A stretch of DNA of 64,000 nucleotides from Marinobacter sp. LQ44 (lineage in GTDB: Bacteria > Pseudomonadota > Gammaproteobacteria > Pseudomonadales > Oleiphilaceae). How positions within the stretch are numbered: the stretch's first letter is position 1; every line of letters begins with the position of its first letter. The stretch lies in the NCBI RefSeq assembly GCF_001447155.2, contig NZ_CP014754.1, forward strand, positions 558,001-622,000, in the 5' to 3' direction. The position numbers and the translations under genes are program-made. Under the pieces are notes generated by a model that made no database searches, had not been told where the DNA came from, and saw nothing but the letters and a program-made list of their open reading frames with translations. This document shows positions 37,249-63,883 of the stretch, one piece after another.

Positions 37249-37293
37249 GGCTGTGTTTTTCTCCTGCTCGGGTTTTAACTTTTGTGGAGCGGC

Positions 37294-37396
37294 CTGGGCC
37301 GGTAGGTTCTTCCAAAACACGCTGTGAATACGTCCATGTACGCTCTGCTCCGCCATCCATGGCTCCGCAAGGTTTTGGAAGAACCTACCGGCCCAG
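37294..37396 (+). repeat. Long hairpin repeat, copy 1
   Basis: Arms of 25 bp (37294-37318 and 37372-37396) are perfectly complementary. The central 53 nt contain two small hairpins (TAC-GTCCAT-GTA and GCC-ATCCAT-GGC), related to but diverged from the core of the copies at 51366, 63526 and 63776. It lies 45 bp upstream of the htpG start codon. It encodes nothing convincing. Confidence 0.85.
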
Positions 37397-37443
37397 CCCA
37401 CCCGACTTTTGAGTTAGGCCAGTGAAAGCACAATGTCTGGGCG

Positions 37444-37632
37444 AGCGGGTGGGGATGGCTTTCCGGAACCGTGCGGAGCCATGGGTGAAGAGCGAAAGCT
37501 CTTCACGGGCTGGCCATGGACGGCCAGCCCAGGACCCGCAGTGCGCCGCAGGAGCAATAAGCCCTGCGGGGCGGAGCCCGAGCCGCACAGGGACGTCTCG
37601 AGGCGTGTTTCGGAAAGCCATCCCCACCCGCT
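37444..37632 (+). repeat. Long multi-branched hairpin repeat, copy 2
   Basis: Outer arms of 26 bp (37444-37469 and 37607-37632, one G-T pair) enclose three further hairpins: a 9-bp stem with a GAAA tetraloop (37485-37506), a 9-bp stem with loop ATGGAC (37507-37530) and a third around 37544-37571. The loop ATGGAC is close to the complement of the ATCCAT loops of the other copies. It lies 47 bp after copy 1 and 78 bp from the end of the thioesterase gene. Confidence 0.75.
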
Positions 37633-37710
37633 TGCCTGCACCAATGCTGAAATTTCTTGAACCAGAGATGGGGGGTCAGCCGGGGCATTTCAACCCCAGT
37701 CAAAACCAAA

Positions 37711-48611: not shown

Positions 48612-48687
48612 TCCCCGATAGCTCAGTTGGTAGAGCAACGGACTGTTAATCCGTTTGTCCCTGGTTCGAGCCCAGGTCGGGGAGCCA
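48612..48687 (+). tRNA. tRNA-Asn (GTT), copy 1
   Basis: The 76-nt gene, including CCA, folds as a standard cloverleaf: acceptor TCCCCGA/TCGGGGA, D arm with AGCTCAGTTGGTAGAGC, anticodon loop ACTGTTAAT (anticodon GTT), and T arm with GGTTCGAGCC. It is identical to the second copy at 63338-63413. Confidence 0.97.
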
Positions 48688-50736: not shown

Positions 50737-51342
50737 ATGAATAAGGTCGCACTACGTTTCCTCAGCTCCAGCCTGATGGCCATCAGCCTCGCCCCATTGG
50801 CGGCACAGGCACAAGATACTCCTCGTTCTGACAAGCGCTACGTTGGCCTTCTGGTGACCGCACTGGAGCACCGCTCTATCGGCGGGCGCACCAAGGAGGA
50901 TGCCTGGGGCCAAGCCGGTACGCTGGTGATCGGTGGTCACCTGAACGACCTGATTCACGCGGAGATCCGCCTGGGTGGCGGGTTCAATGATGCCGATGTT
51001 TCCGGTGGCGACCTGACCCTGGCTGTCGATTACTTCGCCAGCTGGTACATGGGCCTGCACTACCCGATTACCGATTATGCCAACGTGTATGCGCAGGCCG
51101 GTTTTACCCACGTAAAAGGCGAGGCAACCCTGCCCAACCGTGAGGAAGGCTACAACGCGCAGTTCCGAGATATCGAGGGCGATTACCCGGACAGCAGTTT
51201 CAGCATCAGCTGGCTGGCGGGGGTGGATTTTGAGTTGGTGAGCAACACCTTTCTGGTGTTTGAGGGTGGGCGGTTGTTCAAAGACACTGGCAGTAGTGCC
51301 AATACGTTTCAGTTTTCTACGGGTCTACGTTACGAGTTTTGA
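50737..51342 (+). CDS. Outer-membrane beta-barrel protein
   Basis: ATG 50737 gives 201 residues with a signal peptide of about 26 residues (LMAISLAPLAAQAQ). The mature protein is of OmpX/OmpA-like small-barrel type: alternating strands (AEIRLGGGFNDADV, YFASWYMGLHYPITDYANVYAQAGFTHV) and a terminal phenylalanine (GLRYEF), the C-terminal signature for outer-membrane insertion. An in-frame start at 50656 is unlikely. The long hairpin repeat follows its stop. Confidence 0.85.
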   Translation: MNKVALRFLSSSLMAISLAPLAAQAQDTPRSDKRYVGLLVTALEHRSIGGRTKEDAWGQAGTLVIGGHLNDLIHAEIRLGGGFNDADVSGGDLTLAVDYFASWYMGLHYPITDYANVYAQAGFTHVKGEATLPNREEGYNAQFRDIEGDYPDSSFSISWLAGVDFELVSNTFLVFEGGRLFKDTGSSANTFQFSTGLRYEF

Positions 51343-51365: not shown

Positions 51366-51479
51366 GTTAAGAGGGCCGGATATCCTTTCCTGGAAACGCT
51401 ACGAGCACATCCATGTGCGCTTCGCTCCGGCCATCCATGGCCTCCGAGATTCCAGGAAAGGATATCCGGCTCTCTTAAC
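51366..51479 (+). repeat. Long hairpin repeat, copy 3
   Basis: Arms of 30 bp (51366-51395 and 51450-51479; one mismatch, G-T pair) enclose a 54-nt core identical, in reverse orientation, to that of the copy at 63776. The core has two small hairpins, GCAC-ATCCAT-GTGC and GGCC-ATCCAT-GGCC. It lies between the convergent outer-membrane protein gene and rlmKL, where it can act as a terminator for both. Confidence 0.92.
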
Positions 51480-51514
51480 GCATACTTGAGTGCAGGCCGC
51501 TGTTAATCCGACCT

Positions 51515-53701
51515 TTAATCGGTGAGCTTGTGCTGGATATGCCAGCAGTGGTGAATCTTCTGGTTGCGTTGAAAATCCTTGTCCAGAGTGCTTGCCGTTA
51601 CCTCTTTGACTTCAAACTCTGCTTCAAGATCTTCGTCCAGTTTGAACTTCCGGAAATTGTTGGAGAATATCAACAGGCCGTCGCTGGATAACCGTTCCAT
51701 ACACTGACGAACCATGGTGCCGTGATCCCGCTGGATATCCAGAACCCCGGCCATTCTTGCTGAGTTGGAGAACGTGGGCGGGTCCATGAAGATCAGGTCG
51801 AAGGTCTGGTTGGCGGTTTTGCGGTCCGCCAACCAGGACAGACAATCCGCCTGCTCTACCACGTGCTTTCTCAGATCTGCGCCGTTCAGGGCCAGGTTGT
51901 CCTGGGCCCAGCTCACGTAGGTTTTCGACATATCCAGACTCAGGGACCGGCTGGCGCCGCCAACGGCTGCGTGTACCGTGGCTGCGCCGGTGTAGCAGAA
52001 CAGGTTCAGGAAGCGTTTGCCTCGGGCGTGCTGCTGTATCCAGTGGCGCACCGGGCGATGGTCCAGGAACAGGCCGGTGTCGAGATAGTCTTTCAGGTTT
52101 ACCTTCAGGGTACAGCCGTGTTCTTGCACGTTAAAGTATTCGCCGGTTGCGGCCTGTTTCTCATACTGTTTGGTGCCGGTTTGGCGCTGGCGTTGTTTGC
52201 AAACCAGATTCTCGGGGTCAACGTCCAGCACTTCCGGTATGACCGCCAGAGCCTCGGCCAGACGTTCCCGGGCGGCTTTTTCGTCGATAGACTTCGGAGC
52301 CAGGTACTCCTGCACGTGTACATTGCCATCGTATAGGTCGATGGCCAACGCGTATTCAGGCATATCGGCATCGTAAAGCCGGTAACAGCTGATACTCTGC
52401 TTCCGCGCCCACTGACCAATGGTTTTCAGGTTCTTCTTCAGGCGATTGCGTAGCATGTCTGCCCGTTCGGGGTTGGCAATGCGTGGCATAACCTGCCCTG
52501 GCGCAGCCGGGTCTCGCGGTGTTCGGGCATTTTCGGGCTGCACCTCGAACAACAACAGCTGCGCTGGCAGCTTGCCGTTGAACAATTTGTATTGTTTGAA
52601 GCTTCGCAGGCCAATGGACTTACCGAATTCCGGTACACCGGTGAACACGGCCAGGCGCCAACCCGGGAGTTCACGCAAGACGGTTTCACCCAGGGTTTGA
52701 TAGAGCGCGGCCAGCTCTTTGCGCTCGCTCAAGCGTTCACCATAGGGGGGATTGGTCAGCACCAGCCCCTTATCCGCCCAGTCCGGTTGCCGCTCAAACG
52801 CAGATGCCGGCCGGGGCTCTACGCTTACGATGCTGTCCAGACCAGCCCGGCGCAGGTTGTTGCGGGCCGTTTCGATCACCCGGGCGTCCTGATCGAAACC
52901 GGCAAATGCCGGTATGCGCTTGTTTTTGCCTTCATGTGCGCGGCGCTCAACTTCCTGGCGTAATGCCAGCCAAAGTTCCGGCTGATGCCCTGGCCATTTT
53001 TCAAATCCAAAACGCTCTGTTTTCCGGCCCGGCGCAATGTCCAGCGCCATCAATGCTGCTTCAATCACCACAGTTCCGGAACCACACATGGGATCAACAA
53101 AGTCGCCGCCGGCGGCGGCAATATCCGGCCATCCGGCCCGCAGCAGCAACGCGGCCGCGAGATTTTCCTTCAACGGCGCAAGACCCTGTTCAGTACGGTA
53201 TCCCCGCATGTGCAAGCTATGCCCGCTAAGGTCCAGCCCAACCGACAGCCGCCCTCGGTTCAGGCGGGCAGAGATGGTGACATCCGGATCTTTTGGCGCG
53301 ACCGAGGGCCGTGGCAGGCCCGCGCCCCGAATGCTGTCTACGATACCGTCTTTAACTTTCTGGGCACCGAACTGTGTGTTCCGAATTTCTTCGTTCTGCC
53401 CCAGGAAAGTTACTCGAAAGCTGCCGTTGACCGGAATGTGCGATTGCCAGTCCAGAGCCACCACGCCCTCATAAAGTTCGTCAGCACTACGGGCATCCAT
53501 CTCGGCAATGTGCAGGATGACCCGGTTGGCCAGCCGGGACCACAAACAGGCGCGATATCCGGCTTCCAGCTCCCCTTCTACCCAGACGCCCGCCGGCGCG
53601 TTGCGCACTTGAGCCAGGCCAAAGCTTTCCAGCTCATCGGCCAGGAGATACTCAACACCCTTGGGGCAGGTTACGAAAAAGACATGCTTGGACAAAATCA
53701 A
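51515..53701 (-). CDS. rlmKL: Bifunctional 23S rRNA m7G2069/m2G2445 methyltransferase
   Basis: The 728-residue protein starts at ATG 53701. The N-terminal half has a THUMP domain (about 50-160) and the RlmL methyltransferase with FVDPMCGSGTVVIEAALMALD and the catalytic LTNPPYGERL. The C-terminal half (RlmK) has FLNLFCYTGAATVHAA and FIMDPPTFSNS... (residues LIFMDPPTFSN). Both active sites are intact. It modifies G2445 and G2069 in the peptidyl transferase region using S-adenosylmethionine. It sits next to rmf and near pyrD, in line with the order seen in other gammaproteobacteria. Confidence 0.95.
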   Translation of the reverse strand: MILSKHVFFVTCPKGVEYLLADELESFGLAQVRNAPAGVWVEGELEAGYRACLWSRLANRVILHIAEMDARSADELYEGVVALDWQSHIPVNGSFRVTFLGQNEEIRNTQFGAQKVKDGIVDSIRGAGLPRPSVAPKDPDVTISARLNRGRLSVGLDLSGHSLHMRGYRTEQGLAPLKENLAAALLLRAGWPDIAAAGGDFVDPMCGSGTVVIEAALMALDIAPGRKTERFGFEKWPGHQPELWLALRQEVERRAHEGKNKRIPAFAGFDQDARVIETARNNLRRAGLDSIVSVEPRPASAFERQPDWADKGLVLTNPPYGERLSERKELAALYQTLGETVLRELPGWRLAVFTGVPEFGKSIGLRSFKQYKLFNGKLPAQLLLFEVQPENARTPRDPAAPGQVMPRIANPERADMLRNRLKKNLKTIGQWARKQSISCYRLYDADMPEYALAIDLYDGNVHVQEYLAPKSIDEKAARERLAEALAVIPEVLDVDPENLVCKQRQRQTGTKQYEKQAATGEYFNVQEHGCTLKVNLKDYLDTGLFLDHRPVRHWIQQHARGKRFLNLFCYTGAATVHAAVGGASRSLSLDMSKTYVSWAQDNLALNGADLRKHVVEQADCLSWLADRKTANQTFDLIFMDPPTFSNSARMAGVLDIQRDHGTMVRQCMERLSSDGLLIFSNNFRKFKLDEDLEAEFEVKEVTASTLDKDFQRNQKIHHCWHIQHKLTD

Positions 53702-63337: not shown

Positions 63338-63413
63338 TCCCCGATAGCTCAGTTGGTAGAGCAACGGACTGTTAATCCGTTTGTCCCTGGTTCGAGCCCA
63401 GGTCGGGGAGCCA
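63338..63413 (+). tRNA. tRNA-Asn (GTT), copy 2
   Basis: The 76-nt gene is identical to the copy at 48612-48687: acceptor TCCCCGA/TCGGGGA, anticodon GTT in ACTGTTAAT, encoded CCA. It follows the aminotransferase gene. Confidence 0.97.
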
Positions 63414-63525: not shown

Positions 63526-63658
63526 GAGTTTAGCGGGTGGGAACGGATGGATACCCCTCCCGAAAAACGCTACGAGCACATCCATGTGCGCTTCGCTCCG
63601 GCCATCCATGGCCTACGAGATTTTCGGGAGGGGTATCCATCCGTTCCTTTCTAAACTC
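63526..63658 (+). repeat. Long hairpin repeat, copy 4
   Basis: Arms 63526-63566 and 63621-63658 pair with 26 perfect bp next to the core and 8 more at the base (GAGTTTAG), around a small internal mismatch. The 54-nt core is the same as in copy 3 apart from one base. It lies downstream of the tRNA-Asn terminator. Confidence 0.92.
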
Positions 63659-63775: not shown

Positions 63776-63883
63776 GGCAGTGTGGGACGGCCTTTCCAAA
63801 AATCTCGGAGGCCATGGATGGCCGGAGCGAAGCGCACATGGATGTGCTCGTAGCGTTTTTTGGAAAGGCCGTCCCACACTGCC
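63776..63883 (-). repeat. Long hairpin repeat, copy 5 (reverse orientation)
   Basis: Arms of 27 bp (63776-63802 and 63857-63883) are perfectly complementary. The core is the exact reverse complement of the core of copy 3. It lies 118 bp from copy 4 in opposite orientation and 52 bp from the end of the minus-strand gene at 63935. Confidence 0.92.

Follow-up and report, generated by a model that had tools for sequence, protein, structure and literature searches.

The hairpin elements of Marinobacter sp. LQ44 described here are best read as very high-copy, TwoAYGGAY-like, putatively CsrA-binding hairpins carried in read-through RNA, where they would serve as distributed decoys, with arms that would be selected as RNA and scrambled by hairpin instability; on the basis of sequence analysis, we put the probability of this reading at about 60%. 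The family is characterized by its architecture, near-invariant GGA loops, covarying arms, a strand-specific wobble and loci shared between species; it is real, old and of very high copy number, is probably under selection as RNA and most likely binds CsrA. Five copies lie in the window, meaning the whole stretch of 64,000 nucleotides that was analysed, which belongs to a genome of 4.44 Mb in a single contig.

Copy 3 (51366..51479) is flanked by an RlmL-type methyltransferase gene on the minus strand (51515-53701) and by an outer-membrane beta-barrel gene that ends at 51342. Its GGA strand, taken as the RNA strand, is the minus strand, on which arms of 30 nt (5' arm 51450..51479, 3' arm 51366..51395), identified by their 97% complementarity and 54 nt apart, enclose two side hairpins recognized by hexaloop and stem, GGCC-AUGGAU-GGCC at 51429..51442 and GCAC-AUGGAU-GUGC at 51405..51418, each with a CANGGANG site; the predicted fold of the whole element has -69.1 kcal/mol. 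Arms, core and side hairpins are as an earlier note on this DNA had reported, except that the note described the less informative strand: its ATCCAT loops read AUGGAU on the complement, which is the GGA strand.

Copies 4 and 5 have arms of 27 nt, 100% complementary and also 54 nt apart, and together form an outward-facing pair. In copy 4 (63526..63658, GGA strand minus) the arms at 63540-63566 and 63621-63647 are accompanied by an outer, partly paired stretch, and the hexaloop sites are at 63603-63610 and 63579-63586 (minus strand), while copy 5 (63776..63883, GGA strand plus) has its sites at 63813-63820 and 63837-63844. Copy 1 (37284..37406, GGA strand minus) has another core type within the same architecture. 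Copy 2 (37440..37636, plus strand) is a longer variant, also of another core type, with several side hairpins, arms of 30 nt and a single CANGGANG hexaloop, at 37515-37522, whose stem has at least four pairs; it adjoins copy 1 and has a predicted fold of -145.8 kcal/mol. The core pattern matched three times in the window and never in 100 shuffles, and eight of the nine CANGGANG hexaloops found on stems of at least four pairs in the window (both strands) are inside the five hairpin copies. Both side hairpins were predicted in all 18 LQ44 copies that were folded, with a substitution in one of them (L011) weakening the first hairpin.

Read on the GGA strand, each side hairpin consists of a stem closed by C-G and an ANGGAX hexaloop. 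An ANGGAX loop directly on a stem is given, in passages of PMC4005645, as the high-affinity consensus of CsrA/RsmE, in which N and X loop out and can vary, and this placement of the hexaloop, as in CsrA/RsmA-binding RNA, is the one found in the copies. When six genomes were searched with both loops left as NNNNNN, 142 matches were obtained, with GGA in the first loop of 142/142 and in the second of 141/142; a re-reading by script of 141 of those matches gave GGA in both loops in 141/141. Variation in the loops of 149 copies falls on the N and X of ANGGAX, and a minority of copies carry a purine at the first N, which makes the loop ANGGAY and not strictly AYGGAY. The LQ44 genome has one csrA gene.

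Among known RNA families, the best Rfam match of copy 3, with an E-value threshold, was TwoAYGGAY (RF01731, clan CL00106), end to end on the minus (GGA) strand with 34.6 bits (E 3.1e-4 in a search of 171 bases), compared with a gathering score of 43; the match of copy 1, at 27.1 bits, was also under the cut-off. At the curated threshold, Rfam reported in the whole window two tRNAs only and no TwoAYGGAY. As the window copies lie under the score that defines the family, they are not members of it and are therefore termed TwoAYGGAY-like, even if the two AYGGAY-type loop hairpins and the enclosing outer stem of RF01731 are both present. When 17 LQ44 loci were searched jointly, three matches were obtained at E<=1 (best 36.4 bits), one on a class-I copy (L008) and two on further elements at the same loci. 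In the genus, RF01731 matched at E<=0.01 in 34/41 genomes and in 0/14 control genomes, and the cut-off was passed in 6/41 genomes, with eight listed matches that all represent a second core type of the same architecture. Low-scoring Rfam matches to microRNA, SRP and CRISPR families were taken as chance, and those of copy 2 (RsmW, 18.5 bits) were at chance level. The two tRNA genes of the window, at 48612-48684 and 63338-63410, have equal Rfam scores, and copy 4 comes after the second.

A passage of PMC2864571 listed TwoAYGGAY in 2010 as 'probably' RNA, and in 2014 it was proposed, in part of the text of PMC4333381, to bind CsrA, its outer stem being poorly conserved. The elements described here resemble it in having two AYGGAY-type hairpins and a long outer stem of variable sequence, but differ from it in their tens of copies per genome, their several core types, their near-perfect private stems of 26-38 bp and the lack of any apparent expression of their own. 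Among the titles listed from open-licence papers none describes this repeat, subscription journals being outside the scope of the search.

The genome has far more than five copies: 18 at three or fewer mismatches to the core, 24 to 26 with looser patterns and 88 by a general two-hexaloop pattern, whose reversed control gave 0. The class-I core was detected in 104/120 genomes of the genus and was absent from 16/120, and 7/41 genomes had no RF01731 match, so members of the genus can do without the family. Across the order, the class-I core was present in 25/293 genomes and the general pattern in 85/293 (44/118 genera), with the reversed control giving one match in each of three genomes; outside the genus many genomes had only one or two matches to the general pattern, with arms unchecked. 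Class-I-like cores also appeared, among the matches listed, in records of Halieaceae, Microbulbifer, Ketobacter and Sedimenticola.

The arms of this large set are almost always paired. Using the best register for real and swapped arms alike, at least 19 of 24 Watson-Crick arm pairs were formed in 85/88 LQ44 matches, compared with 10/300 when arms were swapped between copies. The rare outcome of a core without complementary arms, named by the earlier note as one that would speak against the family, was thus confined to 3/88: L266, likely a chance match without arms, L285, with hybrid arms, and L311, which is eroded. The stems of the 85 copies measure 26-38 bp with G.U allowed (median 32). In a set of 113 copies from many genomes, 23 or 24 of 25 positions were paired in 90, and the register was the same in 111/113. 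The arms covary: in 18 LQ44 copies, pairing holds in 96.4% of cells, whereas shuffling lowers this to 70.5% and a shift of one to three columns to 33.8-51.5%, and changes on both sides were found in 178 cells against 52 after shuffling.

The arms had been called unrelated to one another, which holds for their outer part and not for the inner ~12 nt, where a consensus is shared, CTTTCCAAAA on the GGA strand, together with a GG located some 25 nt away from the first hairpin. Privacy is a property of the outer 14 nt: among 3570 pairs of LQ44 copies the best agreement was 12/14, and six pairs reached 11 or more. Over a 24-nt arm segment that includes the inner consensus, at least 20 positions were alike in 23/3570 pairs; the best pair reached 23, and its outer parts differ. 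The highest arm matches are mostly ortholog pairs, and some (L019/L038, L024/L065) are of unchecked orthology. The other outcome that was to count against the family, arms conserved between copies, did not occur, since outer arms are not shared between LQ44 copies. A constant core with private, self-complementary arms is not a simple dispersed repeat, in agreement with the earlier note, and an ordinary dispersed repeat with shared arms is ruled out by the 85/88 paired stems and the private outer arms.

At arm positions without a Watson-Crick pair, a process acting on DNA only is expected to produce G.T and A.C in equal numbers, whichever strand is read. At arm positions 2-25 of the 149 copies, G.U on the GGA strand was found 67 times versus 19 cases of G.T on the other strand (p 1.9e-7), and 54 versus 16 when each locus and position was counted once (p 5.9e-6). 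The figures were 45 versus 7 in 65 copies of other genomes (p 7e-8) and 16 versus 3 in the LQ44 census, with 10 versus 2 outside class I (p 0.04). Restricted to arm positions 2-20, the bias was weak (26 versus 12, p 0.03), and other arm mismatches were also frequent, with 61 in the 149-copy set. The G.U asymmetry points to RNA of the GGA strand as the molecule that is probably under selection, a possibility that the earlier note had not taken into account.

This asymmetry bears on the strongest alternative, a selfish or mobile palindromic DNA repeat of MITE- or REP-like type, whose transposase would recognize core and ends as folded single-stranded DNA and whose likeness to CsrA sites would be incidental. 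In favour of such a repeat are the high copy number, outer motifs of weak conservation that a minority of copies carry at a constant distance (TAGCCT in 33/149 copies, control 0; ATAGTC in 14/149, control 1) and ten close pairs, 160-300 bp apart, in which the GGA strands face outward in 10/10, where 0.7 close pairs would be expected. We nevertheless consider it unlikely, since G.U is favoured on a single strand, GGA is kept in both loops of 141/142 matches and the copies are largely shared between genomes: the 149 class-I copies of six genomes fall into 41 locus clusters, some of which may unite the two members of a close pair, and 36/41 of these are present in at least two genomes, 25 of 26 LQ44 copies having a counterpart among the six. 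The one empty/filled comparison that was read gave no clean target duplication. REP/BIME elements with their RAYT are likewise dispersed intergenic palindromes, some in inverted pairs, but the stems here are far longer and private. The claim that the family is not REP-like stands for the LQ44 genome, where REP with RAYT was rejected: the only Y1-transposase gene is flanked by a different repeat, with no core-like sequence in its locus. This RAYT-like gene (L078, near 986048) is surrounded by GGGGTCAGACCCC-type repeats of another family.

Comparison of orthologous loci revealed how the arms change. Over 33 pairs of orthologs that share orientation and have 90% or more identity in each flank, and that are not independent of one another, the arms agreed at 19 or more of 22 positions in 15 pairs and at 14 or fewer in 14. 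Within these 14 arm-divergent pairs, the cores were identical at 40-46 of 46 positions, and in 13/14 both copies had 22-24 of 25 arm positions paired, the fourteenth pair being eroded in both. Between LQ44 and G018, over 16 locus pairs chosen for alignability (L010 and L012, unplaced in G018, were omitted), identity was 94.8% in coding sequence, 95.5% in other intergenic sequence and 94.5% in cores, with 81.5% in the arms and 70.8% within 120 bp outside. Arms at a given locus can often still be recognized as homologous; this is so at a locus adjoining a gene which, from its C-terminal sequence, we take to be rpsA, where the arm changes are compensated.

At the copy 3 locus, the left arm is common to LQ44 and G018, the right arm of G018 is different and its core larger; in G035, G032 and G013 the core is reversed and the arms are others, and part of the right-arm sequence of these three recurs downstream in G018, G031 and G005. 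This suggests that the locus consists of two neighbouring elements, of which one was lost or both were fused depending on the lineage, and a similar collapse of elements is seen in L120/L136. In L118/L135 and L018/L125 the core type has changed with the arms nearly unchanged, which suggests exchange between cores. Some cores (L081, L113, L135) contain an extra stretch of ~80 nt holding further hairpins, by which LQ44 and G018 differ at one locus where the arms are nearly alike. In a close pair common to LQ44 and G018 (L002/L003 versus L129/L130), the arms look swapped with the cores in place, which resembles the result of an inversion of the arms or of the pair.

Two origins of the arms had been put forward previously, and neither was borne out. 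If the core entered existing palindromes, core-less arms should be seen, but no clear case was found in 22 intergenic regions at the orthologous site of copy 3, and insertion of the core into a pre-existing terminator was rejected because no clear core-less palindrome was seen at that site in these regions, although G029 (L100) has a short hairpin with a stem resembling one arm type. Nor was any outer flank found turned into an arm in the ortholog alignments read, as copying of the flank in inverted orientation would imply. In G023 (L089) and G021 (L101) the intergenic site that corresponds to copy 3 is taken up by a different long palindrome, with TAGGTCGGATTAGCGCAGCGTAATCCGAC arms, and a fragment resembling it is present in the window near 51503-51516.

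The compensated arm changes could also be expected from a purely mutational palindrome, in which template switching would keep the arms complementary and flip the core with no RNA function involved. According to the portion of PMC8604942 consulted, template switching homogenizes the arms of inverted repeats and inverts spacers, with local hypermutability, and this likeness extends to the four core-flip comparisons, at two loci, in which arms agree at 19 or more of 22 positions, and to the existence of hybrid and eroded copies. Quasipalindrome correction is, however, a mutational process and not an element, and predicts neither conserved loops nor a strand bias of G.U versus A.C, which is present here in independent sets; the conservation of the loops at exactly the CsrA contacts and the architecture shared across core types would be left unexplained. 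We regard this explanation as improbable on its own, and template switching between arms may contribute to their pairing within the preferred reading of CsrA-binding RNA hairpins.

With respect to expression, a consensus scan revealed no promoter-like signal near copy 3, and TTGACA or TATAAT occurred in at most 3/85 copies on either side. A T-run, as in the own terminator of a Csr/Rsm sRNA gene, was absent in 85/85 copies, the criterion being five consecutive T no more than 14 nt past the 3' arm. Expression would therefore depend on read-through. Placement relative to genes, which were called by a codon-usage heuristic trained on 26 ORFs and not from annotation, followed no significant rule over the 41 locus clusters (27/41 and 21/41), and no fixed 3'-UTR or 5'-UTR position is claimed: the 5' neighbour gene of the GGA strand was in sense in 27/41 clusters (p 0.06) and, for LQ44 and G018 copies with orthologs not removed, in 31/41. 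At close pairs, the transcript of a neighbouring gene would cross one copy in antisense first. ORF calls overlapped 14/149 cores.

That the elements are terminators or 3'-end stabilizing hairpins with loops of little importance, as their very stable stems and the sense counts above might suggest, is very improbable, because the T-run is lacking throughout, the alignment of the rpsA locus places a separate terminator-like hairpin ahead of the copy, the sequence between the tRNA gene and copy 4 includes a hairpin that ends T-rich, and loop conservation would have no explanation.

From the loop sequence we infer CsrA binding and, through it, a role as distributed decoy, and from the palindrome the rewriting of the arms. 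In the mechanism proposed for the CsrA-binding hairpins, each private stem of 26-38 bp would present two side hairpins with ANGGAX sites, predicted to be of high affinity and of CsrA/RsmA/RsmE type; copies, presumably lacking their own promoter and terminator, would be made inside neighbouring transcripts, and one CsrA dimer would bind both loops, with the stem holding the loops and protecting the RNA. Together the copies would then titrate the only CsrA, or link the transcripts that carry them to it. The long palindrome would destabilize its site, leading to arm rewriting, deletions and core inversion, while cores would be homogenized by exchange between copies and selection on the RNA would keep or restore pairing, leaving private arms around a constant core.

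More tentatively, these elements could constitute a genome-encoded, distributed CsrA sponge, with dozens of two-site decoys attached to transcripts of the ordinary kind; the level of free CsrA would then report total transcription, or else individual loci would recruit CsrA to their own mRNA, without relying solely on one or two genes of the CsrB/RsmZ type. In such a system, it would be the private stems that keep apart the numerous copies of a regulatory module with a common core. CsrB, RsmX, RsmY and RsmZ are each encoded by one gene, which has its promoter and terminator and includes several sites. They are similar to the elements in their GGA hexaloops on stems, and CsrA sequestration is the action expected of both, whereas here each copy has two clear sites, the copies are numerous and dispersed, and there is no T-run. 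A description of RsmZ is given in PMC4005645.

With tens of copies per genome, loci common to several species and a clear signature of RNA selection on one strand, the genus is well suited for testing the role of the TwoAYGGAY family. If CsrA does bind, a spread-out sponge would be new in the global control exerted by CsrA in these marine bacteria. Apart from this, the orthologous copies provide a natural record of long hairpins that rewrite their stems with pairing kept. Elsewhere in the order, a genome from a different family has six two-hexaloop matches, all oriented alike and spaced by ~227 bp, in an apparent tandem array (G161:C1:94456-95624).
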